Of a stretch of DNA of 37,470 nt, positions 4,701-37,145 are shown one piece after another. The notes under the pieces were generated by a model. That model was given only the letters and a program-made list of their open reading frames with translations. It was not told where the DNA came from and did no database searches. The position numbers were made by a program, and so were the translations under genes. The DNA is from a virus: positions 1-37,470 of the IMG/VR virus record IMGVR_UViG_3300031141_000017. One strand, 5' to 3'. Numbering within the stretch: the stretch's first letter is position 1; each line of letters opens with the position of its first letter.

Positions 4701-6017
4701 AAAATTACCGCTGGATATCATGTCCCCTTCGGTCAAATTATATTGAGCTTCTATAGTCGCAGCGGTGTCGCCTGACAGTCTTTGGTAAAGTCTTTTAAGA
4801 GGGCCATAAATTCCTTTCACAGCTATTGCAGGGATAGTGTTAACCGCAAGGTTTGTCGTTAACGACCCGCCTAACCCAAAACCCACTTCCATACCAAACT
4901 TCATCCAACCATTATCACGGAAAGAGTCTTCGGCTTTATACGAACCATAAGTGGTGCCGCCTAAACCACCTACTTCAACCATCGCAGTGGTTATAGGGTT
5001 TTGTCTTGCAGACGTACCGATCCTTTCCGTAAGTCCTTCTATGCCCCTAACAGCCCGTGCGGACAAAGGATTAGTATTGCCTGATGCCGCCATAGATTCT
5101 ACTGCGCGGCGTCGGAAGGTTTCTTGTCCCCTATTGACCATAGGACCTATAAAGTCTTTAAGGTTATTAAGAACTACTCTTCCGCCCATGTTGGCTCCTG
5201 CAGCAGGTACCATCCAAGGTGTAATTATGTAAGGAAGCATATTAGCGGCGGTTCTACCTGCCTCGTATGCAGGGGCTCCCGGAATTATAAGTCCTTCTGG
5301 GCCCATAAAGGCTTCAGTAATTTCGTCACCTGCCGCTTTACCCGTTATTGCTCCCGTTACGCCAGCAAGAAGAGGAACACCTACCCGAATAGCAGCGCCC
5401 CAACCTATCGGTGGAACAGCAGATACCGCCAAGTTACCTGCTCTAACGCCTGCAAAAAATCCAGCAGCGGAAAGAGTGCCCCCTGTTATGTCTCGTTTAA
5501 ATCCTTCGATACCAGAGGGGTTTGCGTCAATAGGATTACCTTTGTCGTCTTTTGCAAATACTTGTATTATTTGTACGTCGCTCATCGCTCCGTCGATGCC
5601 TAATTCTTTTATAATAGGAGCGGTGCCGTCACGCAATGTTCCGTAGGTCATCTTGTCTTTGTAAAAAGGATCGTAAACTAAAGTTTGTACTAATTGACTT
5701 GCAAACCCTTGCTCGGGACTATTAACACCAGAACCATATTCGTTAGAAGCCTCGTCTAGTGTATTCCACATACCCATAAACTCTTCGGGAGTAAACCTTA
5801 ATGCAAAAGGTGTATTAGAGGCTATTCCGGGAGGGTATGCTGTTTGCGCAGCAGTCGCCGTAGCTAAAGGATTTGCAGCCACAGGGGTTGCCGCCACAGG
5901 AGGTGCCGCTACAGGAGGTGCCGCTACAGGGGTTGCCGCCACAGGGGTTGCCGCCGCTGCTGGAGTTACAGTATTTGCAGCAATGCCTGCTGCGCTTGGC
6001 GGGTAAGTTTGTGCCAT
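1734..6017 (-). CDS. Giant putative internal virion/ejection protein (1427 aa)
   Basis: No enzymatic domain recognised. Residues about 10-60 are an Ala/Pro/Val pentad-like repeat. A Gly/Ala-rich hydrophobic region lies at about residues 180-250 (AGFFAGVRAGNLAVSAVPP and following), which could enter a membrane. The rest is mostly charged and helical, and residues about 1340-1427 are Pro/Gln-rich. Size, composition and position in a block of five large genes after the tail hub fit ejection or internal core proteins of short-tailed phages; this is inference. The frame can be extended to 6053, but the ATG at 6017 has AAGGAG at good spacing and avoids a longer overlap with the upstream gene, so it is preferred. 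The stop overlaps the next ATG (TAATG). Confidence 0.85.
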   Translation of the reverse strand: MAQTYPPSAAGIAANTVTPAAAATPVAATPVAAPPVAAPPVAATPVAANPLATATAAQTAYPPGIASNTPFALRFTPEEFMGMWNTLDEASNEYGSGVNSPEQGFASQLVQTLVYDPFYKDKMTYGTLRDGTAPIIKELGIDGAMSDVQIIQVFAKDDKGNPIDANPSGIEGFKRDITGGTLSAAGFFAGVRAGNLAVSAVPPIGWGAAIRVGVPLLAGVTGAITGKAAGDEITEAFMGPEGLIIPGAPAYEAGRTAANMLPYIITPWMVPAAGANMGGRVVLNNLKDFIGPMVNRGQETFRRRAVESMAASGNTNPLSARAVRGIEGLTERIGTSARQNPITTAMVEVGGLGGTTYGSYKAEDSFRDNGWMKFGMEVGFGLGGSLTTNLAVNTIPAIAVKGIYGPLKRLYQRLSGDTAATIEAQYNLTEGDMISSGNFILDQLEKNRESPDEILKSLNDSSFNRFLVDEDGNQIELDAATRSASVTLLALQHQFMDAGPEAAASGAKKSMTDAVSALRRALLAMYADGSQEALGDAALIQTGLFEGALDSQLASAVSRMQKSMRQVRPEGENIDLEAANDIFTLLQRQYGSGRKEEELLWKRIPKNIELTEFVDEQGATTNVPNFITKWQELVGDYPIEIQDEILGNANLRFINKYVIRTSEELGLTPPAETAPTVLPALPEQKEVNKYLTKVSGTDNDGFLDELLDQFAEDGLNTSQIVQRLKERAKDALEPEPNWQDSMSSRPSGKLTVTQESKDLSSLLKAHANLISAQDIQAKAFQAVPPVEFVAGAVNASELQRIRSRLLNSSKKFASADDADESRIASQMANAILADLDSPQFGAFNKAYDTARNYSRAFNNVFTRAYAGDVLGTKGNGALKIPIEVLANNLMQGKEAFSRAKMLDGIAQFQVTQSLTNLLEAPLKEATGDISGLSAATRETGAALLEDFNKNIDPTTGVLDMALMRSWYGRNEDAIASVPNLKERIQDAMDGALQMRSSQDTLLRTMKADMLDPDGTLNVGKLSTWKNNENNKRLLDLFPALKSDLDDVKKAKTLLESTRVATKTELAQLKGVKGLYEVLPNKTANPATAITKALDSDTPFDTLTKYTNMIDNIGEDGFTVTTPLSPNQFDMYTKADIQLGLRTAIYDSIFEVQANGAAFRPDVAYNKLFIKHPNGKGQTVANFMLKHDLITEDQLKDTKKFLQEMGKIQAFNTNAKAGQTDAFFEDIGEGVKIIAAMGGSIAGTNLRQMFGGGGSGDLIAAGRGAAFGQGLAQKYMAELPQSLQASRVAIILSNDVLLKKVLQTGKTQRGKEALAAEVIDAFLRNYILNPIRRTGTEGVVSGSAPDDSVEEVPTADPQSAVPVRLPPVERMQLPSQQMQQAPRPVAPQPLQPAPQVAASGPVDRQRFAALFPEDRDLMSGIGSLGGMA
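5881..5955 (-). repeat. Five tandem 15-bp repeats coding an Ala/Pro/Val pentapeptide
   Basis: Five consecutive 15-base units of the form acaggRgKtgccgcY on the plus strand. On the coding strand each gives five residues of the PVAAT/PVAAP type. They lie near the N-terminus of the 1427-aa protein and probably form a flexible linker. Copy number could vary by slippage. Confidence 0.85.
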
Positions 6018-6039
6018 CGTTGTATTCTCCTTATAAACC

Positions 6040-9000
6040 TTATTTTTTTGCACCGGGCAATTTAGACGCCATCATACTAGAAACTGAGTTTATATTGGCC
6101 ATTGATGCCTCGGGACTAGACATTCCTGTCCACATTTGAGGTCCTAGAAGTTGTTTTATTCTTGAAATCTCTTGTAGCTTAACGGCTCTTGTTGCCATAA
6201 CGGCGTCATCAGTAGTGGATAAAGGTATTGTTTGTAGCCTTGCTTCTTCTTCTTTTAAAGCCTCGACTAACATTACAAGTTTGTTGGCTTCGGATTCTGG
6301 GTTTGAAAAGAAAGTTTCTTCGCTAGGGAATAACTTGCCTGTCGCTTCCAAATCCGCAACCGCAAATCGTGGAGAGGCTGCTAATGCCGAACGTCCCATT
6401 ATACGAATCAATTTAACGTACTGGCGACCTTCTTCCACATCTTTAAACATTTCAGAGAAAGCTTTTGGATTAATAAAGCCACCTACGACACCGTTGACTG
6501 CGGCCTGAAAAGCCGATATCGGTCCAGTACCCGCTCGGACTTTACCTAAAACATTTTTTGCAAAGTCTTTTTCTTCAACACTACCTTGTAAACTTGCAAC
6601 AAATAAAGCATCGTTTTGGTTTGACCAATCCCTAGCTTGAGATCGAAGCAATTCTTTACTATATAGATCCGCGGTTTGAGTATCATTAATCTTCATAGCG
6701 TTAGCTGGAAGCTTTTTAGGAAGACCATCTGTTCCAGTGTACGTGGCACCGCCATCGTAAGACATAGCGATAGTTTGCGTACCTTTTTCCTTGTCTGGGA
6801 TCATAAATGCCAAGGCAGTATTGCTTTCAGTTCCAATCTTCTGCATACGTGCGGAGCCGGGATCTGCAGCATTAAGCGCATTAACTTTTTCCATGGCTTT
6901 TTGGCCTGCAGTGGTATTCAAATCGATAACCGTTGGCGTCATTACACCCTCGGCATCAGGCATTGAAACCCTAAACAAGTCTTTAGACTGCAATATGGCT
7001 GTGTTAAATACCTCCACGCCCTTTTGGTTTATATCAGGGTCGTTTTTATCGTAGCGCATCAACACGATTTTCTCACCATTGTTGACCTGTTTAAACTCGT
7101 ACTCAGGAGCAATCCCCCACAATCTGTTTCTACTGGCAACAGGAAGACTGGTAAATTGCGCTTGAGACATTCCAAACTTGTCAAAGTAATCTAGGTCTGA
7201 AAGACCTATACCCTGTAAAGATTCTCTCGTTGTTTTTGGCAACGCTTTAAATTCGGACTCAAGCATTCCATACTTGGCAAAGTACTCATCGTTACCAACG
7301 GGAGCCTTATATTCAGTATATCCTGCAGCCCCAAGTTGATTCACAACTATTTCAATTTCATCTGGCGTAAAGTTAGGCGAAGTACCTGCTTTGTATTTGT
7401 GTCCCATAACTTCTACGTCTGCTGTTAAAGTAACTTGAGTTCTATCTTTGTTACGTTGAACAACCTTATCTGTTATAGCGCCACCTAGTCCGCCTCCAGA
7501 CACTTGTTTAGTTAAGTTCTCAAATCGAGTTGTTCCCGGCGTAGCTACTACTACCTCACCAGAAGGTAAAAGTATATTCATTGGGGCTTTATCAGTGCCT
7601 AATTCAGATATAGCACCTAAACCACCGTCTTTCACAGGCAAAATTGCATTTCTGTGGGTATCACTTCCTACCAACATTTCTCGTAGTGAGCCATCTGGTA
7701 ATTTCATCGTCTTAAACACGAGCGACTTGTTAGTGGGATCGGCTACTGCTGTGAATGCAACTTTACCGTATTTATCTTTATAGGCTTGTATTTCAGAAGG
7801 CAATAGCAATTGATCATTTTCCTTAACCGTTTTGCCGTCTTCATTTTTGTAAGTTACATTGTAGGTTTTAGCGAGTAGTTTGTCGTCGCCTTCGGCTAGT
7901 ACGTTTACGCTTTGGTACCCTGCCGAGTTAACCATGTTCATTTGACCAACTGTTAACGGCTGTCTTACGCGCATAATCGTACCGTCTTGCCTTACAATTT
8001 CTAAAGCTTGAGCTTTACCCCCATCTATCAACTTGGAGTTTGCCAAAGCAAGCGCGGCGGCGATGTCGGCGGCTTGAGCATTCTGTGCAATTTGAGAAGC
8101 GGACTGTGACGCTAGTTCAGCATCAAAACGACCTTGAGACGCCGTTAGCGCCGAAAGATCCATGGCTCTGTCTTCCGCGTCTTGAGCTTGTTTGAACTTC
8201 CCTAATTCGCCTGCACGAACGCCAATGTTACCTAATACAGGAGAGAAAGACTGAGCTAAACGCTCCGCGGGGCTCATTTGACGATCGCCGGGAGAAGCAA
8301 ACGCTAATGCACCCTGCGCCACATCAAATAGCATTTGAGCTTGAGTTAAGTTTTTTTGTTCTTCAAACGCATCTTCATTGTCGCCAGCACCAAGCAAAGT
8401 GCTTTGAAGTGTTTTCTGATCTTCAAACAATTGTTTTTGACGCGCTAACGCAGGAGACATTCCAACGGCATTGTCTAAAGTTGGGAGAGCAGCGTTTGCA
8501 TTTTGAGGTACGGTACTGTTATCCAACTGGTAATTAAAAGCACCACCCCCCAATTCCATATATCTGACGGGGCCGCCATTATCCATGTACTGGACAGCAC
8601 CGCCTTGGCTAAAATTTACAGGGGCGGGGCCCTCCGCAGGTCCCATATTAACGGTTGACATGATGCCTTCGGCCATTGGGCCCTCAATAGGGGCCATCAT
8701 CTCATCTTGAGCTAAACCGCCAATACCCTGATCAACCGCTGCCATTTGCATGACAGGCTGTATCAAGGTTAAAACTGATTCTGGAGTCGCCGTAGCGTCT
8801 TCTGGTCCGACCATTCCAGCAAGCTCTTGGTACCGAGCATCAATGGGCAATTGATCGCCACGAATTGCATTGATTGCGCTTTCGTAGTCTTGGGCGTTAT
8901 CTAAGTTATCCATACCTTGTTGGTAATCGCCAAGGCCTTGTTCCAACATGGCGGGGTCTAAACCCTGATCCATTGCACCTTGCGCGGCTTGCTCCATACT

Positions 9001-9183
9001 CATCTCTTCGGGAGGCATTCCACCCATCATTGCAGGATCAGGCGGCATTCCACCCATCATTGCAGGATCAGGCGCGGGAGCGGCTTGTGGCATTAGTTGC
9101 ATAGACGCGATGCCGCCTTCTTGCATAGGGCGGACAAAACCACCTTGAGCAAACATCTGACGATTCATTACTTCTCTGTTCAT
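6040..9183 (-). CDS. Large putative internal virion protein (1047 aa)
   Basis: Not assignable to a named family. Residues 1-215 are rich in Met, Pro, Gly and Ala. They carry FAQGGFV at about 11-17, two copies of a PDPAMMGGMP unit, and several GG-hydrophobic motifs (FSQGGAVQYMDNGGPVRYME). Residues about 225-380 look helical, with many Ala, Gln and Glu. The middle holds a tandem repeat, YFxKxGMxxxxFxxLPxxxRxxLxGI, twice. The C-terminal third is helical. No protease or lysozyme motif was seen. The start overlaps the previous stop (TAATG); an alternative ATG lies six codons in (MNRQMF). Position in the block of large late genes suggests an ejected or internal protein. Confidence 0.85.
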   Translation of the reverse strand: MNREVMNRQMFAQGGFVRPMQEGGIASMQLMPQAAPAPDPAMMGGMPPDPAMMGGMPPEEMSMEQAAQGAMDQGLDPAMLEQGLGDYQQGMDNLDNAQDYESAINAIRGDQLPIDARYQELAGMVGPEDATATPESVLTLIQPVMQMAAVDQGIGGLAQDEMMAPIEGPMAEGIMSTVNMGPAEGPAPVNFSQGGAVQYMDNGGPVRYMELGGGAFNYQLDNSTVPQNANAALPTLDNAVGMSPALARQKQLFEDQKTLQSTLLGAGDNEDAFEEQKNLTQAQMLFDVAQGALAFASPGDRQMSPAERLAQSFSPVLGNIGVRAGELGKFKQAQDAEDRAMDLSALTASQGRFDAELASQSASQIAQNAQAADIAAALALANSKLIDGGKAQALEIVRQDGTIMRVRQPLTVGQMNMVNSAGYQSVNVLAEGDDKLLAKTYNVTYKNEDGKTVKENDQLLLPSEIQAYKDKYGKVAFTAVADPTNKSLVFKTMKLPDGSLREMLVGSDTHRNAILPVKDGGLGAISELGTDKAPMNILLPSGEVVVATPGTTRFENLTKQVSGGGLGGAITDKVVQRNKDRTQVTLTADVEVMGHKYKAGTSPNFTPDEIEIVVNQLGAAGYTEYKAPVGNDEYFAKYGMLESEFKALPKTTRESLQGIGLSDLDYFDKFGMSQAQFTSLPVASRNRLWGIAPEYEFKQVNNGEKIVLMRYDKNDPDINQKGVEVFNTAILQSKDLFRVSMPDAEGVMTPTVIDLNTTAGQKAMEKVNALNAADPGSARMQKIGTESNTALAFMIPDKEKGTQTIAMSYDGGATYTGTDGLPKKLPANAMKINDTQTADLYSKELLRSQARDWSNQNDALFVASLQGSVEEKDFAKNVLGKVRAGTGPISAFQAAVNGVVGGFINPKAFSEMFKDVEEGRQYVKLIRIMGRSALAASPRFAVADLEATGKLFPSEETFFSNPESEANKLVMLVEALKEEEARLQTIPLSTTDDAVMATRAVKLQEISRIKQLLGPQMWTGMSSPEASMANINSVSSMMASKLPGAKK
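7111..7284 (-). repeat. Tandem protein repeat YFxKxGM...LPxxxRxxLxGI within the 1047-aa protein
   Basis: Two adjacent copies, 26 residues each, separated by GLSDLD. Copy one begins YFAKYGMLESEF and copy two YFDKFGMSQAQF; both continue with a LP pair, an Arg, a Leu and a final GI. The DNA copies have diverged, so this is a repeat at protein level only. Confidence 0.8.
9014..9073 (-). repeat. Two perfect 30-bp direct repeats coding PDPAMMGGMP
   Basis: The 30-base unit starting ggcattccacccatcattgc occurs twice in immediate tandem with no mismatch (9014-9043 and 9044-9073). Perfect identity suggests a recent in-frame duplication in the N-terminal segment of the 1047-aa protein. Confidence 0.9.
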
Positions 9184-11177
9184 TAAAATAACCCCGATTT
9201 GCCGACACCAGCGGCTGCTGATAGTCCTGCTACGCCCAAACCAAGTATTTGTTGGGCAGGTGAAGTGCTTGGAGAAGTAGAAGACGTAATAGACTGCTGA
9301 CTAGTCGGCGCACCTTTATATATGTCGGACAAAAATCCAACACGTTGATATGGTTCGTAAAGCCTTTCCATCTGCGTTTGACGGCCTGCTTCAAGTTCTG
9401 CTTGCTGCTGTGCTTGTTGTTGCTTACCAAGATCAAACGTAAACCCTGATTCTTTCTGCTGTAGACCTTGACCCAATTCACCGAGGGCCGCTTGACGCAT
9501 TCCAAGATCCGCTTGACCTGACCCTTGGGCCAGATTAAGTTGGCCGTATGAAGTTCCGAGACCGCCGATACCTTCACCTATTCTACTCTGTAATTCGTTT
9601 CCTTGCACCCCAAAGGCACCCGCTTGTTGAGCGCCTTGCATTCCGATTTGAGCTTGGGATTGACCTAATCCACCTGCCTGTCCTGCAAGTTGTGCCGCTA
9701 ACTGCTCTGTTGAGATGCCCATTTGAGCAGCTTGTTGAGCAATAGAAGCCTGTTGCGTTGCACCAGAAAGGCCTAACTGACCCATCTGCGAGGTTAACTG
9801 ACCGCTTAATTGTGCAGCGGACATACCCGTAGAGGCTTGAAGTTGTTGTAAATTCATTCCTGTCTGAGCAAGTGCTTGTGCGTTAGCCGCGGCCATCTGT
9901 TCGCCAGATAACCCTAACTGTCCTGCGGTTTGAGCCGCAGATAGACTTAATTGTCCACCTTGCTGCGCGGTTTGCGCCGCTAACTGCTCTGCAGATAACC
10001 CTAACTGTCCTGCCGCTTGTGCTGCCGCAATACCAGATTGAGCACCTTGAGCGCCGAGAGCACCAGTAAGTTGTGCCGCTTGTAAGCTGCGGCCTTGTTG
10101 TGATTCAAAAGCTTGTTGCGCACGTTGTGATGCGCTGTCAAAACCTTGCTGACGCATTCCAGCCGCAGTGCGGCCTTGTTGCTCAAGAATGTTTCGGCTT
10201 AGTTCTGAATCTACTATGCCTTGGCGAGATCCGCCAAAAGCACCTGCGCCTACGGCTTGAGCATCAGCAGAAAGCTGTTGAATATCGCCAGCACGTTGAA
10301 TATCTGCCATAGCTTGTTGCACGGCAGCGTCTTCGTATTGATTCATGTAAGAACTAGCACTAGTGGGATCATAAGCACCCGTTGCGCCTGCTAATCCTGC
10401 AATACCTTGTTGAGCGGTTTGTGTGCCAAAAGCACCTGCTTGTTGTAAAGCTTGAGCCGCCGTTCCTGTAATACCTCGAGCACCAGCAATAGCTGTTCCA
10501 GTGCCTAGCTGAGATTGACGAGCCGCCTCTAATGCCGCAATGCCTGCGGAGGAAGTACCCGCTCGTGCTGCATCAGTAACACCCGATAAACTTTGTCCAA
10601 GCGTTGTACCTACACCTTGGTTAGACGCTGCCGTTAATGCTTGTCCCGCCTGACCCAAAGAACGCTGATTACCTAGTTGAGCATTGTTTAAAACAGTGGG
10701 TATCTGACTCGAGGCAGAACCTAACGCCGTTTGTCCAGCTAAAGCCGCGGCCCGTGCGTTCTCAGCCGCGGTCCCCAGTGCGCCTGTGGCTGTTTGAGTC
10801 GCACCTGCACCGTAATCAATAGCGTTTTGGATACCTAATTGAGCAGCGGATATTTGTTGCTGATTGTTGCCCGCGGCACCACGCATAAGACCCGCGGCTT
10901 CTGTTTGATAAGGACTTGCGGCTCCCATTGTAGAGCCAATCGTGCTTTGCGCATCACCTAATGTGTATCCAGCTTGCTCTAAATAAGGCTGGTAACCGCC
11001 GATACCCGCTTGCGCGATTTCAGTAGCGTTTATTTGAAGCGCCGACATCTCCGCAACTACTTGTGCGGGAATAGCGACGCCTGTATCAGCCAGTGCTTTA
11101 GCCGATTGAAGGAGGGCTAGCTTGTAGGCCTCAATCTCGGGAGCTTCTCTGACAATTTGTTCTTGAGTTTCAGCCAT
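9183..11177 (-). CDS. Gln/Ala/Gly-repeat virion protein, putative ejection protein (664 aa)
   Basis: The N-terminus (ETQEQIVREAPEIEAYKLAL) and C-terminus (PYQRVGFLSDIYKGAP, then a Ser/Thr-rich linker and a Gly/Ala-rich tail ending KSGLF) resemble a family I know from marine phage virion proteins. Between them are about 400 residues of degenerate Ala/Gln/Gly/Leu repeats such as AAQTAGQLGLSGEQMAAANA, about 14-18 residues per unit, and a conserved patch GAFGGSRQGIVDSELSRNIL near residue 320. The pattern predicts long amphipathic helices, as in ejected core proteins that line a transperiplasmic channel. That role is inferred. Both ends are coupled to neighbours by TAATG overlaps. Confidence 0.85.
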   Translation of the reverse strand: MAETQEQIVREAPEIEAYKLALLQSAKALADTGVAIPAQVVAEMSALQINATEIAQAGIGGYQPYLEQAGYTLGDAQSTIGSTMGAASPYQTEAAGLMRGAAGNNQQQISAAQLGIQNAIDYGAGATQTATGALGTAAENARAAALAGQTALGSASSQIPTVLNNAQLGNQRSLGQAGQALTAASNQGVGTTLGQSLSGVTDAARAGTSSAGIAALEAARQSQLGTGTAIAGARGITGTAAQALQQAGAFGTQTAQQGIAGLAGATGAYDPTSASSYMNQYEDAAVQQAMADIQRAGDIQQLSADAQAVGAGAFGGSRQGIVDSELSRNILEQQGRTAAGMRQQGFDSASQRAQQAFESQQGRSLQAAQLTGALGAQGAQSGIAAAQAAGQLGLSAEQLAAQTAQQGGQLSLSAAQTAGQLGLSGEQMAAANAQALAQTGMNLQQLQASTGMSAAQLSGQLTSQMGQLGLSGATQQASIAQQAAQMGISTEQLAAQLAGQAGGLGQSQAQIGMQGAQQAGAFGVQGNELQSRIGEGIGGLGTSYGQLNLAQGSGQADLGMRQAALGELGQGLQQKESGFTFDLGKQQQAQQQAELEAGRQTQMERLYEPYQRVGFLSDIYKGAPTSQQSITSSTSPSTSPAQQILGLGVAGLSAAAGVGKSGLF

Positions 11178-15244: not shown

Positions 15245-15667
15245 TTATTCCTTAAAGTAAACTAATACTCCAACGGCGGCACCCATAATTAAAATTAGTA
15301 TACCAAAAACTTTCACGGCTAAGGATAGATTTTCTTCTAATGCTTTTTGTTTAGCCCTACGCTTTTTAGATTCAACCTTTTGTTTCTTGTAAAACTCTTC
15401 TCTAAATTGCTGATACTTATAATAGCCTAAAAGTCCTTGCTTGTTTAACATCCACGCCAATTCTTCTTCTTGTCGTACTAAAGCTTGTTTTGCTTGATAA
15501 GCAGCTAAGACATCACCTGTACCTAGCTTTGCTTTCTGCTCAATAGCTTGGCTTGCCCCAAAGTATTTAGTTAACGCAGAGCCCGCGTCTGCGATTTCTT
15601 TGCCGTTAGATAAGGTGGTTTTAATAACCTTAAAGGCAGCGTTAGCTATCATTAATTCAGCTAACAT
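15245..15667 (-). CDS. Coiled-coil protein with C-terminal membrane anchor (140 aa)
   Basis: Residues about 1-105 are helical and charged, with a Lys/Arg/Glu-rich coiled coil (FREEFYKKQKVESKKRRAKQ). Residues about 115-137 are one membrane segment (VFGILILIMGAAVGVLVYF). I have seen proteins of this layout near the tail genes of marine phages, without a known function. The frame extends to a TTG at 15679, but the ATG at 15667 has a GGGTGG element just upstream and only a 7-base overlap with the previous stop, so it is preferred. It could be a lysis accessory or a virion membrane-interacting protein. Confidence 0.8.
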   Translation of the reverse strand: MLAELMIANAAFKVIKTTLSNGKEIADAGSALTKYFGASQAIEQKAKLGTGDVLAAYQAKQALVRQEEELAWMLNKQGLLGYYKYQQFREEFYKKQKVESKKRRAKQKALEENLSLAVKVFGILILIMGAAVGVLVYFKE

Positions 15668-15852
15668 TTTGCCACCCAATGCAGCGTGGACATAGGGCCG
15701 TGCTGCTTGTAAGCTACAATCCCCGTTATACGCTGTACACTATATCGCTCTGTTACATCAGTTGTTTGAGGTTCATTAATTAGAACCTGTCCAACAGGTG
15801 CGGTAGCAGGTGCAACATATACGGGATATACCTCGCTGATCGTAGACCACAT
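15661..15852 (-). CDS. Small hypothetical protein (63 aa)
   Basis: Not recognised. The product starts MWSTISEVYPVYVAPATAPV and ends STLHWVAKC. It fits exactly between two coding genes: it starts 7 bases after the upstream stop and its stop overlaps the next ATG. The ribosome site is weak, so translation may depend on coupling. The segment would otherwise be an unusual 190-base gap in a compact operon, which supports it being real. Confidence 0.65.
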   Translation of the reverse strand: MWSTISEVYPVYVAPATAPVGQVLINEPQTTDVTERYSVQRITGIVAYKQHGPMSTLHWVAKC

Positions 15853-15859
15853 TGCTAAA

Positions 15860-16069
15860 TTAAGCAGCCGCTGCTGTGATTGCTTTCATATCTTCTGTAG
15901 TCCAGTAATCTTTAGCAAGCATGAGAACCAAATGTTCTTTGTTACGTGCTAAGGTATCTGTCCAATCATCGTCAGACATATCGGCTGGCTTACCTGCCTT
16001 GATTAGGGCTACTGAGTCACCACACGCTACGTAGTGTGCTGCGATTTCTACTGCTGTTAATTCTTCCAT
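15860..16069 (-). CDS. Small acidic conserved protein (69 aa)
   Basis: A helical acidic protein: ELTAVEIAAHYVACGDSVAL, then AGKPADMSDDDWTDTLARN and a C-terminal helix EHLVLMLAKDYWTTEDMKAI. Similar small proteins occur beside fibre genes in marine phages; the role is unknown. It could be a fibre assembly factor, by position only. The ATG has a GGAT element, and the gene follows the S74 fibre by four bases. Confidence 0.8.
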   Translation of the reverse strand: MEELTAVEIAAHYVACGDSVALIKAGKPADMSDDDWTDTLARNKEHLVLMLAKDYWTTEDMKAITAAAA

Positions 16070-16073
16070 TGTT

Positions 16074-18110
16074 CTATCCTTCTAGTGTTGTGATACGTGC
16101 AGCGAGTGCTGCGTTTTGGGTTGATAATTCTTGGATTGCTTTAGTTAAAATGGGGATTAAGGCTCCATCTGCTACCTCTTGAGAACCATCTTCTCTGCTA
16201 TTCCACATCTGGAATCCATCTTTTATTTCAGAATGTGAATCCATAACAGTCTTAACTTCTTGTGCTATAAATCCATGATTAGTTTGTGTGTTTTTAAATA
16301 CTTCTGTTGAGTCTGCTTTATAAGCTCTAAAAGTTTCTGGTAGTTCACCTAAAGTTTTATAGTTCCAAGTCACTGGACGTAGTGCGTTAACAAATGATAA
16401 TCCCGCAGTTGATGAAGTTATGTCTTTCTTATATCGTTCATCAGATACAGTGGCCCAGTTAGTGCTACCATGAGAAGTTCTTATGTCAGATGTTCCGTAG
16501 CCTATCGTAGTGGTGCTGGCTGAACCAGCCACATCATATCCAAAGGCATTAGACTCTGAACCAGTAGCCTGACCATGTACATTTGCCCCTATAAATGTAT
16601 TTCTTCCACCCGTAGTAAGTGCTTCACCAGAGACTCCTGCTCTATATCCTATAATAGTGTTTGAAGCACCCGTAGTTATGGAAGATCCAGCATTCTTACC
16701 AAGCACTGAATTATAACTAGCAGTAGTAGCAGCCTGTAAAGCATTCTGACCAAAAGCCGCATTCTGTTGGCCTGTGGTGTTAGTATATAAAGCGGCATAG
16801 CCTACAGCAGTATTATGTGGCCCTGTGGTGTTATTATATAAAGCAACATAACCTACAGCAGTATTCTCTCCACCTGTAGTATTAGCATTTAATGATGCTA
16901 AACCTATCGCAACATTACTAGAACCAGTAGTGTTAGTAGTCATAGCAGCCTTACCAACTGCGGTATTATTAGAACCTGTGGTGTTAGCGTCTAACGCTTG
17001 ATACCCAACAGCAACATTAGCTCCACCTGTTGTGTTAACTTGCATAGCAGAGGAGCCAACTGCGGTATTAGTAGCACCTGTAGTGTTAGATATTAAAGCA
17101 ATTCTACCTACTGCTACGTTGTTTGCGCCCGTGGTATTTTGCTCCATAGCACCTGTACCCACAGCAGTATTATCAGATGCGGTGGTGTTAGCATACAAAG
17201 CAGTTCTACCAATGGCAACATTGTACTGGCCTGTAGTGTTGGTATACAAAGCAGTTCTACCATGAGCGGTATTGTAACTACCTGTGGTGTTAGCTCTTAA
17301 CGATTGAAAACCAACGGCAGTATTGTCTAAGCCTGTGGTGTTAGCCTCTAAAGACCCTGTTCCAACAGCTACGTCACTTGCACCAGTAGTGTTAAGTGCA
17401 AGTGAGTTATAGCCTACGGCTGTGTTATCTGCACCTGTGGTGTTAGTTGTTAAAGAGTTTCTTCCTACAGCCGTATTTGCACCTGCTGTAGTGTTAGCAT
17501 TTAAAGCACCTTGACCAACTGCGGTATTTAAAGCACCCGTAGTATTGCTTGCAAGAGAGGCATCACCGACAGCAGTGTTGAACTGACCTGTTGTGGACAA
17601 CTGTAGTGCAAATGTTCCTACTGCTGTGTTGTATGCCGCAGTAGTGTTAGTACCTAACGCACTTTTACCTACAGCCGTATTACGAGTACCTGTAGTGTTA
17701 GCGTCTAAACATTGAAAGCCAACAGCAGTGTTACTAGCACCTGTAGTGTTAGCTAGCAAAGAATAATAACCAACCGCAGTGTTTTCAGAAGCTGTAGTAT
17801 TATTTAACAAAGAGGCGTGACCTACAGCAGTGTTACTAGCACCTGTGGTGTTATCTCTTAAACTGTTGTCACCTAAAGAACTATTAGCAGAGGCTGTAGT
17901 GTTAGCAGTTAAAGAATTATTACCAAAGGCTACGTTGTTATCACCTGTAGTAATAGCAGTGCCAGCATTAGTACCAACTAACGTATTCTCATTGCCACCA
18001 GACGTAATACTGTCGCCAGCAGTAGAACCAGCTACAAAGTTGTTATTACCTAGCGTGTTAGTAACGATACCTTCTGTTGTGACTGCCGCACCCGTTATAA
18101 TAGTAGGCAT
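16074..18110 (-). CDS. Tail fibre/adhesin with YadA-head-like repeats and S74 chaperone domain (678 aa)
   Basis: A short N-terminal segment (about 57 residues) is followed by about 25 units of 17 residues with consensus xNTAVGxxALxxNTTGx (residues about 58-482). This pattern resembles the left-handed beta-roll of trimeric autotransporter heads. After a degenerate unit region comes a C-terminal intramolecular chaperone of the S74 type. It starts at SDERYKKDI (Ser near 556, the expected self-cleavage site with the downstream Lys), has GFIAQEV, and ends in a coiled coil QELSTQNAALAARITTLEG. In known S74 fibres the chaperone trimerises the shaft and is then released. Unlike its upstream paralogue it lacks an obvious virion-docking N-terminus. 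Likely role: host binding. Confidence 0.85.
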   Translation of the reverse strand: MPTIITGAAVTTEGIVTNTLGNNNFVAGSTAGDSITSGGNENTLVGTNAGTAITTGDNNVAFGNNSLTANTTASANSSLGDNSLRDNTTGASNTAVGHASLLNNTTASENTAVGYYSLLANTTGASNTAVGFQCLDANTTGTRNTAVGKSALGTNTTAAYNTAVGTFALQLSTTGQFNTAVGDASLASNTTGALNTAVGQGALNANTTAGANTAVGRNSLTTNTTGADNTAVGYNSLALNTTGASDVAVGTGSLEANTTGLDNTAVGFQSLRANTTGSYNTAHGRTALYTNTTGQYNVAIGRTALYANTTASDNTAVGTGAMEQNTTGANNVAVGRIALISNTTGATNTAVGSSAMQVNTTGGANVAVGYQALDANTTGSNNTAVGKAAMTTNTTGSSNVAIGLASLNANTTGGENTAVGYVALYNNTTGPHNTAVGYAALYTNTTGQQNAAFGQNALQAATTASYNSVLGKNAGSSITTGASNTIIGYRAGVSGEALTTGGRNTFIGANVHGQATGSESNAFGYDVAGSASTTTIGYGTSDIRTSHGSTNWATVSDERYKKDITSSTAGLSFVNALRPVTWNYKTLGELPETFRAYKADSTEVFKNTQTNHGFIAQEVKTVMDSHSEIKDGFQMWNSREDGSQEVADGALIPILTKAIQELSTQNAALAARITTLEG
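16665..17939 (-). repeat. About 25 tandem 51-bp units coding xNTAVGxxALxxNTTGx
   Basis: Each unit is 17 codons. On the plus strand a recurring word of the type cctgtggtgttagc marks each repeat. Copies have diverged in the variable positions but keep NTAVG and NTTG. The DNA is a good substrate for recombination between units and with the paralogous gene next to it. Confidence 0.9.
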
Positions 18111-18114
18111 TGTT

Positions 18115-19878
18115 TTATCCCTCTAGTGCTGTGATTCGGGCAGCGAGCGAGGCGATTAACGTCTGACTTGCTACATCTTTTGCTGATAATTCTTGTATTG
18201 CTTTGACTAACGGCATAACAAACATCTCGTATGAAATACCCTGCATGTTATCTTCACCATCTTCCATCTGATGATGCCCTGCAAAGTCTGTGATGTTATG
18301 TGCATTTAAAGTTGCTTTAACTTCTTGAGCCACAAATCCATACATCTTTTTAGAGTGTCTAGGCGTGGTGTTTTCTGAGTCATACTCAGTCATTGAGGTG
18401 TCTAGTTCTGAAGGAGCTTTAAATTTATACGTTACTGTACGTAGGTCATTAATAAAGTCTAATCCACAATCTGTGTTTGTAGAAATATCTTTCTTAACCC
18501 TTTCATCTGAAACTCTCGTCCAAGAAGCGTTAGCTTGAAAGTTGTTATAGACACGACTACTTCCAGTATTCAGACCAAAAGTAAAATATCCAGAACCAGC
18601 ACCCCTCACAAAACGACCAATAACAATCTCATTACTTGCTGATGCACTTGACACATGAGAATACGCACCAACACAAACATTTGAATTACCCGTAGTCGTT
18701 GGCAAGCTATAGCCACCAGCATAAAAACCTAGATAAGTGTTTTCTCCACCAGTCGTTACGTCCCTACCTGCTGCTGTTCCAACAGTAGTATTGTCACTAC
18801 CTGTAGTATTTGTCACTAAAGCAGAACTACCTACAGCAACATTATTGCCACCAGAAGCGGTAGCATAGCCAGCCTGTGTACCGATTAAAGTATTATCTGG
18901 ACCTGCTGCCAAGTCATGCCCAGCAGTAAAACCAACTGAAACATTGTTAGCAGCCGTTGTTGATGACAATGAAGCATGATAGCCTATTGCTACGTTTGAC
19001 TGTCCCGTGGTGTTAGCACCTAATGCACCAGCACCAAGAGCAGTATTTTGTGCACCTGTAGTGTTAGCGTCTAAAGCTTCAACACCAACAGCAGTATTAT
19101 TTGCTCCTGTAGTGTTAACCTGTAAAGCACTTTTACCTACAGCAGTATTACTAGCACCTGTAGTGTTAGACGTTAATGCCACACGACCAATAGCAGTGTT
19201 GTAACTTGCTGTTGTATTTAACTGCAAAGCACCTTGACCTAAAGCAGTATTGTTATTGCCTGTAGTGTTAGTTTTTAACGCTTCTTTACCTACCCCAGTA
19301 TTTTCTGCGCCTGTCGTATTTGCAAGTAAAGACTCATAACCCACTGCTGTATTATCATTGGCTGTAGTGTTAGCCGCTAAAGAAGACTTACCAACTGCTG
19401 TATTACGAGTACCTGTAGTATTAGCCTCTAAAGAAGCAAAACCAACGGCAGTATTGTTACTTGCTGTGGTATTAGCATACAAAGCATCCCTACCAATAGC
19501 AGTGTTAAAACCACCTGTAGTATTAAGAACCATTGCAGTTCTGCCAAATGCAGCATTACTTGCTCCTGTAGTGTTAGCCCCCAAAGAATCTAAACCAACA
19601 GAAGTGTTAAAACCACCTGTAGTATTTGCGTCTAAAGAACCTTTACCTAGCGCAGTGTTATCGTCACCTGTAGTAATTGCTGTACCTGCTTCATCACCTA
19701 CTACAGTGTTATTATTACCACCAGATACAATAGAGTTACCTGCGTTAACACCTGCCACAAAGTTACTTGTTCCTAGAGTGGTCGAGGAAATACCTTTTGC
19801 AATAATCGGGTTATTGATAGTAATGCTACCTGACCCGTTTGCCGTTTCAAGCGTATCTACTTTTATTTTAGAAGCCAT
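18115..19878 (-). CDS. Tail fibre/adhesin with YadA-head-like repeats and S74 chaperone domain (587 aa)
   Basis: Paralogue of the next gene downstream. The N-terminus ASKIKVDTLETANGSGSITI is a typical phage fibre docking segment. Residues about 73-378 hold about 18 units of 17 residues, the first 14 regular (NTAVG/NTTG) and the last four drifting. The C-terminal S74-type chaperone starts at SDERVKKDI (Ser near 457), has GFVAQEV, and ends in a coiled coil SLAARITALEG. Expected maturation is trimerisation followed by autocleavage before the Ser. The ATG has AGGAG. It lies four bases before its paralogue, so the two are probably made together and may form two layers or alternatives of one adhesin. 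Confidence 0.87.
   Translation of the reverse strand: MASKIKVDTLETANGSGSITINNPIIAKGISSTTLGTSNFVAGVNAGNSIVSGGNNNTVVGDEAGTAITTGDDNTALGKGSLDANTTGGFNTSVGLDSLGANTTGASNAAFGRTAMVLNTTGGFNTAIGRDALYANTTASNNTAVGFASLEANTTGTRNTAVGKSSLAANTTANDNTAVGYESLLANTTGAENTGVGKEALKTNTTGNNNTALGQGALQLNTTASYNTAIGRVALTSNTTGASNTAVGKSALQVNTTGANNTAVGVEALDANTTGAQNTALGAGALGANTTGQSNVAIGYHASLSSTTAANNVSVGFTAGHDLAAGPDNTLIGTQAGYATASGGNNVAVGSSALVTNTTGSDNTTVGTAAGRDVTTGGENTYLGFYAGGYSLPTTTGNSNVCVGAYSHVSSASASNEIVIGRFVRGAGSGYFTFGLNTGSSRVYNNFQANASWTRVSDERVKKDISTNTDCGLDFINDLRTVTYKFKAPSELDTSMTEYDSENTTPRHSKKMYGFVAQEVKATLNAHNITDFAGHHQMEDGEDNMQGISYEMFVMPLVKAIQELSAKDVASQTLIASLAARITALEG
18745..19662 (-). repeat. About 18 tandem 51-bp units coding xNTAVGxxALxxNTTGx
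   Basis: Same 17-residue unit as in the neighbouring gene. The first 14 units are regular and the remainder lose the NTTG end. Units such as those starting RNTAVGKS and SNTAVG occur in both genes, which suggests duplication or exchange between them. Confidence 0.85.
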
Positions 19879-21013: not shown

Positions 21014-23296
21014 TTAAAGAATGACCCACGTTGAACCGTTTGTTACTGTAACAGTATAACTCGCGTTTACAGTAACAGGGCCTACGGTAGACCCGTTTTC
21101 GTTACCTGCGAATGTAATGTTTTCGGCTATCACCTTTGCATTAGTGCGTATAACAGAATTTGTTCCAAGTGAAGGACCTCCTCCGTTAGCATCGACGTAA
21201 GCTTTAATGGATTGTTGAGTGGCTAACGCCGTGGCGCTGTTGCCTGACATGTTGTCTTGATCAAGAATGTCCGTAATGCTAACCGAACCTGTGCCCGACA
21301 AAGAATTAAACTCAACTGCTCCCGCCACGTCTAACGTGCCTGCAATAATTAAACTATCTGCACTCTCGTCCCAAAGAAGAGACTTGCCCGAGGTAGCACC
21401 AAAGAACTTAACGTCATAACCCGTGTCGTTAACACCTACTGTAACAGTAGAGTCAATTTGAACAGCACCATCGATGTCTACTGCTCCACTAATGTCTAAA
21501 GTCGCTGCGTCCAACTCCCCCGTTATAGTAAGATTACGAACGCCTGTGTAGTCTTTATTCGCATCTAGTATGACAGCCTTAGAGGCTACAGCCGTACCAA
21601 TAGCTGTGGAGCCAATGTCTAAAGCATTGATTTCAGCTACTACTACCGTTGCACCGTCAAGAATGTTTAACTCTGCCGCAGTACTTGTAACCCCATCAAG
21701 GATGTTTAACTCTGCAGTAGTAGCGGTAACCCCGTCAAGAATGTTTAACTCGGTGGCCGTTGAAGTTACTGCCACGTTTTCATTAATTTTAGGAGAGGTT
21801 AAAGTTTTGTTTGTTAGTGTGTCAGTAGATACGCGTGACAATAAAGTTGAGTTAGCGCCCGCTGGCAACATGAGCGTATTGGTCACAGAAGCGGAGTGAG
21901 GTTGGCCAAATACTTTTTGACCGTGACTGTTACTCTCGCAGTTGAATACAATCGCACCTGAATTATTATTACCTCGTACAACTACAGTACCTGTGCCGTT
22001 AGGCGCTAGATCAATAGTAGCATTAGACGTTGTAACAATGTCTTTGCCGTTCATGTCTAGGTTTCCACCTAATTGTGGAGAGGTATCGTCTACCACAGCA
22101 GATAAATCGCCGCTTGAGCCTGTGCCTGCAATAACAGTTGCTCGAGTCATCTTTTTAAGATTACCGCCCGAAGCATCTATAGCTATAAAAAGGTCGTCCG
22201 CTGCAGCGGTGCTAATCTCTACTAAAGACGCTACCGCCGTGGGGTTAAAATTTGTGCCATCAGCAACAAGAAGCATTCCTGCCGTGTTGGTTCCCATAAC
22301 CAGATCATCGCCAGTTATAGTAAGGTCACCACCTACTATTAAGTTACCTGATACATCGGCTGCACCATTAACATCTAACGTACCCGTAACAACTAGGGTA
22401 TCAGCACTCTCGTCCCAAAGAAGAGACTTGCCAGAAGTAGCGCCAAAGAACTTAACATCATACCCCGTGTCGTTAACACCTACCGTTACGGTGCCATCAG
22501 CTTGAATAGCGGCGTTAATGTCCAAAGTGGTTGCAGCAAGTTGGATCTCAGTGTCTGCAACAATGTCTAACTGACCATCAGCACTTGAGTTAATAAAAAT
22601 CCCTGAGTCTCGGAATTGTATTTTTTGATTGGTCGTAGTGGTGTTGCCGTTATTCAATACTTCAGCTAGATTGCCGCCCGTATTTGCGTCAACATAGGCT
22701 TTAATAGATTGTTGCGTGGCTAATGCAGTGGCACTATTGCCCGACATATTATCTTGATCAAGAATGTCTGTTATTGCTACGGACCCAGTGCCCGATAAAG
22801 AGTTAAACTCAACTAAGCCCGCGACATTAATTCCGTCAACAGCCAGATTTGAGTAAACGTTAACGGCCTTCGCACCTGAACCGCCGCCATCAAACTTAAC
22901 GAGCACATCGGTACCCGCGGCAATTTCAAGATCATTGCTTGTGTTGTATGTGCCTTGAAAAATAAATATGGATCGACTACCCGTTAAGCTGTTGCGTATA
23001 AAGCATAGTTTTTCAGCGTCATTAGGGGTAAGTGTTACATAAACAGACGCGCCTAAATCTCCACCGTCTGCAAATTCAATGTATTTGTTACGTCCAGTAG
23101 AAGAAGCGCCGTTGGTAATAGCTATTGTATTAGGTGAGCCTGACGAGCCCGCAGAAGATAAAGTTATTACGACTGCACCGTTAATAGCCTCGTCTAAAAT
23201 ATTAGAGTTGTCATTAACCGTTTCGCCCCACGTTCCAGATTGTTCACCAGTAGCTGGTTTCTCAATACCGAGGTTGACTGTATATGTACTAGGCAT
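21014..23296 (-). CDS. Large tail fibre protein with internal duplications (760 aa)
   Basis: The N-terminus STYTVNLGIEKPATGEQSGT followed by WGETVNDNSNILDEAI is a common phage fibre virion-attachment domain. The shaft contains ELNILDGVT-type 13-residue repeats (three clear copies and one degenerate). Two long segments are duplicated: NSLSGTGSV...QDNMSGNSATALATQQSIKAYVDA at about 165-203 and 664-703, and VGVNDTGYDVKFFGATSGKS with its flank at about 272 and 615. The C-terminus ends VTVTNGSTWVIL, typical of fibres. The ATG has a GAGGAA site. It heads the fibre cassette and probably anchors to the tail hub. Confidence 0.88.
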   Translation of the reverse strand: MPSTYTVNLGIEKPATGEQSGTWGETVNDNSNILDEAINGAVVITLSSAGSSGSPNTIAITNGASSTGRNKYIEFADGGDLGASVYVTLTPNDAEKLCFIRNSLTGSRSIFIFQGTYNTSNDLEIAAGTDVLVKFDGGGSGAKAVNVYSNLAVDGINVAGLVEFNSLSGTGSVAITDILDQDNMSGNSATALATQQSIKAYVDANTGGNLAEVLNNGNTTTTNQKIQFRDSGIFINSSADGQLDIVADTEIQLAATTLDINAAIQADGTVTVGVNDTGYDVKFFGATSGKSLLWDESADTLVVTGTLDVNGAADVSGNLIVGGDLTITGDDLVMGTNTAGMLLVADGTNFNPTAVASLVEISTAAADDLFIAIDASGGNLKKMTRATVIAGTGSSGDLSAVVDDTSPQLGGNLDMNGKDIVTTSNATIDLAPNGTGTVVVRGNNNSGAIVFNCESNSHGQKVFGQPHSASVTNTLMLPAGANSTLLSRVSTDTLTNKTLTSPKINENVAVTSTATELNILDGVTATTAELNILDGVTSTAAELNILDGATVVVAEINALDIGSTAIGTAVASKAVILDANKDYTGVRNLTITGELDAATLDISGAVDIDGAVQIDSTVTVGVNDTGYDVKFFGATSGKSLLWDESADSLIIAGTLDVAGAVEFNSLSGTGSVSITDILDQDNMSGNSATALATQQSIKAYVDANGGGPSLGTNSVIRTNAKVIAENITFAGNENGSTVGPVTVNASYTVTVTNGSTWVIL

Positions 23297-28202: not shown

Positions 28203-29114
28203 TTATGCTGCGCCGGGCGTACCGTAAACACAACGCCAATCGGATACACCGAATGAGTAACGTTCACGAGCTTTAAAGCGCATGTTGCCCGTATCGAAGT
28301 CACCTTCCATCGCAGTCTTAATAGACGAACGGTTGAAGTGCTTGAAGCCGTTAGGAGCATCAGTCTTGATGAAGAAAGCATCAGTGTCGGTAAGGAAGTG
28401 GTTAACCACTGCACCGTCTGGAAGCATTCCCATAGACTTCATTGCGTTTGTGTCGTTATCCGCAGTGCCAGAGCGCAAGTTCGAGTTAATTACTCGTTCT
28501 GCGATGAACTGAAGCTCTTTAGGAATAATAAGCTTCATGCCACGAACTGCAATCTTCAAACCACGCTCATCCGTCAAACTAGCAACGTCAATCAACATCT
28601 GCTCCAACGAAGTTTCGTTGAGGTCGGCAGCAACTGCCAAGACATTGGTTTGGTTACCCGAAAGAGAGGGGTGGGCTGCGGAACAAAGTGCTGCACCATC
28701 GCCAATCGCATTAACGCCAGCAGAGAACGCATTGTTCAATACAGCCGCGGCTTTGATTTGCTTAGTCTGGGCCATAGAGCGGGCCAGAGCTTTGGTGTAA
28801 CGCGATGCAAGACGATCATAAAGATTGTCTTCCACTGCTTCCTCAGTAATTGAGAACGCAAGCGCAATAGTTTCGTGAGCGTAACGAGCGGTATAAGTCT
28901 CTTGAGCGTCGTCAAAACTGATGGCAGAGCCTTCATTCTTAACAGGTGCAGTAGAGAAACCACCAAGCATTACTTCTTCTTCAAAGGCGCGGTCCGAAGA
29001 CTCTTCTTCAAAGATTTCAGAATGCTCATTTTCGTAACGATTAAATTCGAGACCGAACAAGGCGTTTAGGCCGGGTTCAAGCTCTTTCGCTAGTTGTGCG
29101 CGAGAAATAGCCAT
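28203..29114 (-). CDS. Major capsid protein, HK97-fold type (303 aa)
   Basis: The protein begins AISRAQLAKELEPGLNALFG, then FEEEVMLGGFSTAPVKNEGS, TARYAHETIALAFSITEEAV, and EDNLYDRLASRYTKALARSM followed by VLNNAF. The C-terminus has RGMKLIIPKELQFIAERVIN, and ends with FSVSD-like SFGVSDWRCVYGTPG. This is the pattern of major head subunits in many marine phages and recalls Mu gpT-like proteins. Length is usual for an HK97-fold coat. The position after scaffold and decoration-like genes, the strong AGGAGG site and the terminator straight after it all fit the most abundant virion protein. Confidence 0.85.
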   Translation of the reverse strand: MAISRAQLAKELEPGLNALFGLEFNRYENEHSEIFEEESSDRAFEEEVMLGGFSTAPVKNEGSAISFDDAQETYTARYAHETIALAFSITEEAVEDNLYDRLASRYTKALARSMAQTKQIKAAAVLNNAFSAGVNAIGDGAALCSAAHPSLSGNQTNVLAVAADLNETSLEQMLIDVASLTDERGLKIAVRGMKLIIPKELQFIAERVINSNLRSGTADNDTNAMKSMGMLPDGAVVNHFLTDTDAFFIKTDAPNGFKHFNRSSIKTAMEGDFDTGNMRFKARERYSFGVSDWRCVYGTPGAA

Positions 29115-31158: not shown

Positions 31159-31671
31159 TTAGTTTAAATTATGGATGTCTTCAGGGTCCAAAATGGTCGA
31201 CAGTATCTCGTCGTCATTAAGTATTCTGACTTCTCCCCCATCTATCTGGAAGCGCGATCCAGCATAACGGGCGAACATAACCCACTGCTTTTCTTTGCAC
31301 CATGCTCCATCTGGAAATTTATCGGCATCTCCATAGGCTAGGGGTCCTAGCTTGAGTACATAACCGACTTGGGTAGAGATTTGGCTTTTCTCCTGCGTTT
31401 CAGAAGGGAGAAAAATACCGCCTGCGGATTTACCTTTGCCTTGATAGGGTAGAATTAATATCCGCCAGCCCGTAGGGTTGGGCATCCTGTCTAAGAGAGT
31501 TTTCCCGATAGCGTCAGGGTTAAGGCGTGGTTTTTCCACGTAGGCGTCTGCAAGTTTAGTTGCTTCATCCGCAACTTCGTTTGCTTTAGCTTTTGCTTTA
31601 GCCTCACTGGCTAATTGTTTAGCAGTCTTTTCATAGACTACGGGTTCTACTTTTTTTTCTACTGCGCTCAT
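31159..31671 (-). CDS. GroES-like co-chaperonin (Cpn10 fold), 170 aa
   Basis: Residues about 66-155 follow the Cpn10 beta-barrel pattern: PTGWRILILPY, a flexible loop GKGKSAGGIFLPSETQEKSQ (the GIFLP matches the GroEL-binding tripeptide region of the mobile loop), then GYVLKLGPLAYGD, KEKQWVMFARYAGSRFQIDG and GEVRILNDDEIL. Phage co-chaperonins such as T4 gp31 adjust GroEL so that it can fold the coat protein. A Lys/Ala-rich helical extension of about 55 residues precedes the domain, which ordinary GroES lacks. The gene sits immediately upstream of the scaffold. The start overlaps the previous stop (ATGA). Confidence 0.85.
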   Translation of the reverse strand: MSAVEKKVEPVVYEKTAKQLASEAKAKAKANEVADEATKLADAYVEKPRLNPDAIGKTLLDRMPNPTGWRILILPYQGKGKSAGGIFLPSETQEKSQISTQVGYVLKLGPLAYGDADKFPDGAWCKEKQWVMFARYAGSRFQIDGGEVRILNDDEILSTILDPEDIHNLN

Positions 31672-35618: not shown

Positions 35619-35631
35619 AACCACCCCTAAT

Positions 35632-37095: not shown

Positions 37096-37129
37096 AAGGG
37101 ACCCATAGGTTTTGAAAAATAAAAATTTA

Positions 37130-37145
37130 TGTTTCACGTGGAACG
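37130..37145. promoter_or_regulatory. parS-like ParB-binding site
   Basis: The 16-base sequence TGTTTCACGTGGAACG matches the chromosomal parS consensus TGTTNCACGTGNAACA at every defined position except the last. The core GTTNCACGTGNAAC is a perfect inverted repeat. Chromosomal parS is the loading site for the ParB CTPase clamp. It lies between the candidate -10 and the terminase start, so it would be at the start of the late transcript. Resemblance is read directly; binding is inferred. Confidence 0.7.

Follow-up and report, generated by a model that had tools for sequence, protein, structure and literature searches.

Long phage tailspikes and fibers such as endoNF of K1F and T5 pb1 end in an S74 domain (PF13884) with Ser and Lys five residues apart, and in one known group of S74 fibers this end follows NTAVG/NTTG repeats (HTVC111P, HTVC112P, Venkman, CRP-1, CRP-7, SPO1 gp2.52, and P-SSM2; PHROG 4636). 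In the anchor-branched systems of the G7C, CBA120, and KP32 viruses, genes for receptor-binding proteins of different specificities are adjacent, and the second lacks the anchor domain (PMC6872550). In the Alteromonas phages A5 and V22, a fiber and a downstream partner gene are common to distantly related phages (PMC10579305). We analyzed two adjacent fiber genes, P2 and P1, in a 37,470-base pair (bp) linear virus record of IMG/VR (IMGVR_UViG_3300031141_000017; the whole stretch is hereafter called the window). The virus is a tailed, marine-type bacteriophage, and its main genes lie on the minus strand.

P1 and P2 resemble the endoNF-type fibers in being long fiber proteins with a C-terminal S74 domain and the same Ser/Lys spacing; however, the endoNF-type shaft is a triple beta-helix with an enzyme domain, whereas P1 and P2 have a predicted solenoid of 17-residue repeats and no recognized enzyme domain. 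The repeat and the S74 end are shared with the NTAVG/NTTG group, and a small partner gene lies near the fiber in HTVC111P, Venkman, and CRP-7, as in the window. Identity to this group is at most 42% among the matches listed, and the window has two such fibers head to tail with different tips. Adjacency and an unanchored second gene recall the branched systems, but no T4gp10-like branching domain was recognized by Pfam and neither P1 nor P2 carries an enzymatic domain. As in A5 and V22, a fiber and its downstream gene recur in distantly related phages. The chaperone of A5 and V22 is S74-like and has 195–240 amino acids (aa), whereas here the fiber has its own S74 domain, the small protein has 69 aa and is modeled as all-helical, and the exchange junctions are inside the repeat array.

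Two adjacent S74 repeat fibers

P2 (positions 18115–19878, minus strand; 587 aa) lies upstream of P1 (16074–18110, minus strand; 678 aa), and 4 nucleotides (nt) separate the two open reading frames (ORFs), both of which match the PHROG tail spike family 4636. At the P2/P1 junction (GCACTAGAGGGATAAAACAATG, 18108–18129, minus strand), the ALEG-stop codons of P2 double as a Shine-Dalgarno-like stretch. The junction of P1 with the small gene that follows it (15860–16069; ACACTAGAAGGATAGAACAATG) is almost identical.

Each gene carries in-phase 17-residue units and a significant C-terminal match to PF13884 (the two E-values are 5e-10 and 2e-12, and the two scores, 39.9 and 47.6 bits, exceed the curated cut-off of 22), so that the two-gene architecture described in an earlier note on this DNA is confirmed. 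The core unit is N-T-A-V-G-x-x-A/S-L-x-x-N-T-T-G/A-x-x. All 37 core units have Gly5 and Thr13-Thr14, and the periodicity is far above chance. P2 has 20 in-phase units (residues 57–396; 18691–19710, minus strand), predicted to form a beta-solenoid with a predicted local distance difference test score (pLDDT) of 85–94 over most of residues 200–370, and P1 has 27 (residues 42–500; 16611–17987, minus strand), with irregular end units at residues 39 and 400 of P2 and 24 and 504 of P1. These counts are near the approximately 18 and 25 units of the strict NTTG type given previously.

The S74 domains occupy 18115–18510 in P2 and 16074–16445 in P1 (both minus strand). A Ser-Lys dyad, five residues apart, is present in SDERVK of P2 (S457 and K462) and in SDERYK of P1; S457, D458, R460, and K462 (P2 numbering) did not vary across 30 aligned fibers. 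The two residues match in position the dyad described for MYRF and for endoNF, where it is S911/K916 (PMC3742443, PMC8326128). The S74 chaperone probably drives trimerization and is subsequently released by self-cleavage in front of the Ser of SDERxK.

The fiber class is widespread. P1 matched 107 of 50,697 GenBank phage records, including Synechococcus, Bacillus, Pelagibacter, Prochlorococcus, and Roseobacter phages; the same class occurs in pelagiphages, the OM43 phage Venkman, roseophages, SPO1, and P-SSM2 and is covered by PHROG families. All close relatives of the two fibers are viral, and giant-virus proteins are among the predicted viral structures of this kind. Searching GenBank phages at the DNA level with an 8.2-kb piece of the locus gave zero matches, solved structures searched by sequence gave none related at E ≤ 0.05 (one match at E 0.056), and a literature search with the repeat string NTAVG returned nothing but noise.

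Exchange of fiber tips inside the repeat arrays

The 3′ part of P1 (16074–17293, minus strand), comprising approximately 14 units, the tip, and the S74 domain, is 97.6% identical in DNA to the fiber of L005 over 1,218 nt (L-numbered relatives are metagenomic contigs). From codon 273 to the gene end, 29 differences were found, 16 of them at third codon positions, and over residues 273–663 the identity averaged 98% in 23 successive 17-codon steps. Directly upstream of this block, identity falls to approximately 55%, as between any two units aligned in register. The switch takes place inside a single unit, at the NTTG codons AACACCACAGGT. L007, a contig independent of L005, carries the same block, and in L006 the shared part starts at codon 409 (96%). 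On the 3′ side of P1, the high identity to L005 reaches into the first part of 15860–16069 and then drops to approximately 80%. The 5′ part of the L005 array holds a block similar to P2 residues 69–153 (80–92% per unit).

The backbones of these phages are unlike. The sole other recognizable flanking homologue upstream of the fiber in L005, a tail protein, is 26% identical to that of the window, and the backbone homologues of L006 are 25–43% identical; downstream of P1, the genes at 15661 and 15245 are 49–51% and 73–81% identical to those of L005/L006. No terminase was found in the putative donor contigs, which are short fragments in which its absence is unsurprising. The near identity of tip DNA between phages whose backbones differ (L005 and L006) marks this part of P1 as a horizontally shared fiber-tip module, and, as read from the sequences, P1 together with an L005-like phage shows exchange inside an array directly. 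The junction is present in two separate records, the window and L004 (99.99% over 14.5 kb), and the longest exact array repeat is only 24 nt; therefore, assembly chimerism is unlikely for the P1 junction.

P2 has a comparable relationship with another contig. Its 3′ half (18115–19118, minus strand) is homologous to fiber 1 of L165, with 84.7% identity over 1,011 alignment columns and 95% over residues 358–561. In L165, fiber 1 is directly followed by the small gene and then by a second S74 repeat fiber with another tip (40% identical). Of the high-identity pairs among 150 such fibers, 41 matched over part of their length only, and in many of these the matching stretch ran from within the array to the end of the gene. 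The clearest array-located junctions elsewhere were seen in the pair L045/L049, whose tips are 98% identical and whose N-termini are unrelated, and in the trio L224/L231/L230. Up to the middle of the array, L231 is 99.8% identical to L224 over 6.3 kb; from there on, it is 99.8% identical to L230 over 8.0 kb. It is possibly either a natural recombinant or an assembly chimera.

High repeat identity had been proposed to favor recombination here. Recombination within arrays is borne out by the sharp junctions of P1/L005, L045/L049, and L224/L231, whereas the high identity holds for the protein consensus only. The mean DNA identity of core units is 59% in P1, 64% in P2, and 61% between the genes; in both genes adjacent units are no more similar than remote ones, and the longest exact repeats are 22–24 nt. 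Because unit identity is low, alike within and between the genes, and no higher for neighbors, the argument fails at the DNA level. High unit identity is not the driver of exchange; the crossovers lie in register at conserved codons. Separately, recent expansion of an array within the window was ruled out, as neighbor-unit identity is not raised and no exact repeat exceeds 24 nt.

A probable pair of receptor fibers with different tips

We consider it likely that P2 and P1 are two separate receptor fibers, or branches of one structure, with different tips, assembled by exchange of tips inside the arrays between phages. Each would be a homotrimer in which 17-residue units form a solenoid shaft, followed by a short tip region at the distal end and by the C-terminal S74 domain. 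The arrays of unrelated fiber genes share conserved codons in register (those of NTTG and NxAVG), so that a crossover in the array could join the resident N-terminus to a foreign tip while reading frame and beta-roll are kept. On its other side, the exchanged segment would end at the conserved 3′ terminus of the fiber gene or shortly after it, within the small partner gene. Two different tips would give one virion two receptors or a spare specificity.

Several points weigh against this interpretation. P1 has no N-terminus of a recognized type (see below). The S74 part of the P2 model is poor (pLDDT mostly below 50), and the models are monomers. Half of the related fibers have no recognized member of the small-gene family directly after them, and P2 itself is not directly followed by one. 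Finally, as the contigs are metagenomic, assembly chimerism could account for some of the junctions, L224/L231/L230 in particular.

How the fibers would attach to the virion can be considered from their N-termini. The docking N-terminus that many full-length relatives have in common (MPSTYTVNLGIE..GEQSGTWG; pattern M..TYxxxLxLxExxTGExSGTWG) is found in the window on a separate upstream gene at 21014–23296 (minus strand), which encodes a 760-aa protein. In L085, the nearest relative by backbone (75–88% aa identity in neighboring genes), the same N-terminus is fused directly to a repeat array and S74 domain. The N-terminus of P2 is short, MASKIKVDTLETANGSGSITINNPI, and of the IKVDxL type; by eye, it resembles those of the multi-fiber locus L201. 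P1 carries neither the docking nor the IKVD-type N-terminus. The earlier note had credited only the first gene with a typical docking N-terminus; this has to be corrected, since the canonical one belongs to 21014–23296. In Pfam, P2 and the 21014–23296 protein showed no T4gp10-like branching domain and no match beyond S74, although such domains usually need remote comparison. In branched systems, one of two receptor proteins lacks an anchor (PMC6872550), and by analogy with these systems we prefer to read P2 and P1 as a putative branched receptor-protein pair.

It is conceivable, but in our judgment unlikely, that only one fiber works. P1, which lacks a docking N-terminus, would then be a tip cassette kept in reserve or caught in transition, or else a degenerating remnant of an exchange. 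The N-terminus of P1 is short and unmatched, L085 manages with a single fused fiber, and most loci have one such fiber (173 had at least one; 8 had two or more, some redundant). Against this, the 678 codons of P1 are open, its S74 dyad is intact, 16 of the 29 changes relative to L005 are third-position changes, and a Shine-Dalgarno-like stretch stands before its start, 4 nt after P2. Short N-termini also occur on the sole repeat fibers of L078 and L040. In branched systems, attachment peptides can be as short as 7 residues (PMC6872550).

The 21014–23296 gene contains internally duplicated segments (21327–21466 with 22371–22510, 82%; 21186–21328 with 22683–22825, 81%) and a 39-bp tandem repeat at 21657–21751.

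Divergence of the two tips

The two genes had been described as tandem paralogues. Local duplication of one fiber gene followed by divergence, during which slippage or unequal crossing over changed the number of units, would account for their same domain order, 69% identical N-terminal caps, and near-identical 3′ junction sequences, and a clean one-unit difference exists between P2 and L165. Nevertheless, the S74 tips of P1 and P2 are only 41% identical, and in the first set of 72 tips, 66 other tips were closer to that of P1 than the P2 tip was. The P1 cap is nearest to L005 (81%) and the P2 cap to L020 (87%) and others, and in no unit pair was the raised neighbor identity of a recent duplication seen. 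Tips are divergent at every multi-fiber locus with at least two scorable S74 tips: 41% identity in the window, 40% in L165, 33% in L184, and 30–36% in L201. Duplication is thus very unlikely; in terms of sequence, P1 and P2 are not recent copies of each other and carry different tips, each far closer to fibers of other phages.

L201 (2518–10177) has three S74 repeat fibers in one locus, with tips 30–36% identical. A 293-aa ORF (MLNTYVVEGGVGKC...) follows the first of them, and similar ORFs follow both L184 fibers.

Predicted fold of the repeat shaft

The AlphaFold2 monomer model of P2 forms a solenoid across the repeats (pLDDT up to 94). VIA-align matched it to UspA1 and CsgA (curli; both Z 18.4), GlmU (15.6), CbpF (15.5), LpxD (approximately 15), BoaA (13.3), and YadA (11.8); the UspA1 match extended over 236 residues at 2.7 Å, and BoaA was 32% identical over 132 aligned residues. 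Foldseek against PDB returned nothing at E ≤ 0.001. The match of the modeled fold is to a family of solenoids and is not specific.

The head beta-rolls of trimeric autotransporters (YadA, UspA1, and BpaC) are built of 14-residue, rarely 15-residue, layers with Gly at position 8 (PMC9543794). The P2 model is similar in that its solenoid has short layers, each with a single invariant Gly. Its layers have 17 residues, however, and Asn and Gly are 4 apart (N1 and G5) instead of 5 (N at 3 and G at 8). Pfam YadA_head did not match P1 or P2 even at E ≤ 10, although HMMER filters drop most weak matches, and at the C-terminus, in place of the YadA membrane anchor, S74 alone was found. As the layers have 17 and not 14–15 residues, YadA_head is unmatched, and the solenoid matches are unspecific, the "YadA-head repeats" of the earlier note are retained as a resemblance only: "like an autotransporter head" may be a fair description of how the modeled shaft is built, but by sequence the shaft is not a YadA head. 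That the fibers are adhesins of the true YadA-head family, captured from bacteria and sticking to surface structures, is the least probable explanation, since the modeled likeness to UspA1 (Z 18.4), CbpF, BoaA, and YadA is accompanied by comparable matches to CsgA and the left-handed helices of GlmU/LpxD, and the unmatched family, the layer length, the Asn-Gly spacing, the absent anchor, and the exclusively viral close relatives all argue against it.

Changes in repeat number

Comparison across relatives, which the earlier note had named as a check, showed that repeat number varies. Fibers with the same MADTTT-type N-terminus have 21 to 38 units, and a single 17-aa unit of P2 (about residues 341–357; 18808–18858, minus strand) is missing in L165, with a diagonal shift of exactly 51 nt. 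In 23 near-identical (≥ 99.3%) full-length pairs, length was unchanged apart from truncation at contig ends, and no sign of fast slippage between near-identical contigs was seen. The length difference between L192 and L194 was rejected as a change in unit number, as it lies outside the array. Because relatives vary in unit number yet near-identical pairs kept their length, these comparisons suggest that arrays lengthen or shorten on an evolutionary timescale, chiefly along with block exchange, and do not indicate fast change of the phase-variation kind.

A small helical gene downstream of the fibers

The small gene at 15860–16069 (minus strand) begins 4 nt after P1 and encodes a 69-aa helical protein, a candidate fiber assembly partner. 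Its codon-position differences fit a protein-coding gene. Relatives of 69–90 aa start directly after 62 of the 124 S74 repeat fibers with enough downstream sequence; as the loci were fetched by fiber similarity, this count describes these fibers and not all phages. Many of the other fibers are followed by different ORFs of 80–115 aa. Among isolates, the small gene adjoins the fiber in Venkman and CRP-7; in HTVC111P and HTVC112P, it is separated from the fiber by one gene, annotated as a glycosyl transferase.

The family had no match in Pfam, PHROGs, or NCBIfam. The protein is modeled as three helices (pLDDT 95.8); structural comparison gave a best Z of 7.1 with none meaningful, and Foldseek found no PDB entry at E ≤ 0.001. 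From its position, we would guess that the protein is a chaperone or assembly partner of the fiber.

Implications for marine phages

Receptor-binding tips decide which bacteria can be infected, and for ocean phages they are mostly unknown. Exchange of tips is a plausible route to altered host range. This locus is a readable case of tip movement, with near-identical tip DNA, unlike backbones, a join at a defined run of codons, and two tips side by side. Tip type and shaft length may provide a handle for marine viromics, and the uncatalogued small protein could be needed to make such fibers in the laboratory. As the fiber class, fiber mosaicism, and multi-receptor phages are already known, the advance is one of detail.

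More broadly, it is possible, although we propose it only tentatively, that the 17-codon arrays are a general in-register site at which marine phages with unrelated fiber bases swap whole tips, sometimes stacking several, and that the 69–90-aa helical protein is a dedicated assembly partner of this class.

Other genes of the window

The terminase (35632–37137), portal (33177–35699), and major head protein (28203–29114) are encoded on the minus strand. A 144-aa protein with a hydrophobic C-terminal stretch (15245–15679, minus strand) is 73–81% identical to the L005/L006 genes despite the unlike backbones; in L165, its homologue sits just before the endolysin. A 170-aa protein (31159–31671, minus strand) matches phage GroES co-chaperonin over residues 63–160 (PHROG 3188, E 1e-15) and has approximately 60 extra N-terminal residues. 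Three large proteins (1439, 1047, and 664 aa; 1734–11177, minus strand) gave no PHROG match at E 0.001 and lie where internal or ejection proteins are usually encoded; this region has repeats at 5863–5955 and 9014–9074. Short tandem repeats with periods of 12, 33, and 45 bp (TTGTTGTGCTGC) were found at 1366–1477, inside a 370-aa minus-strand ORF (622–1734).

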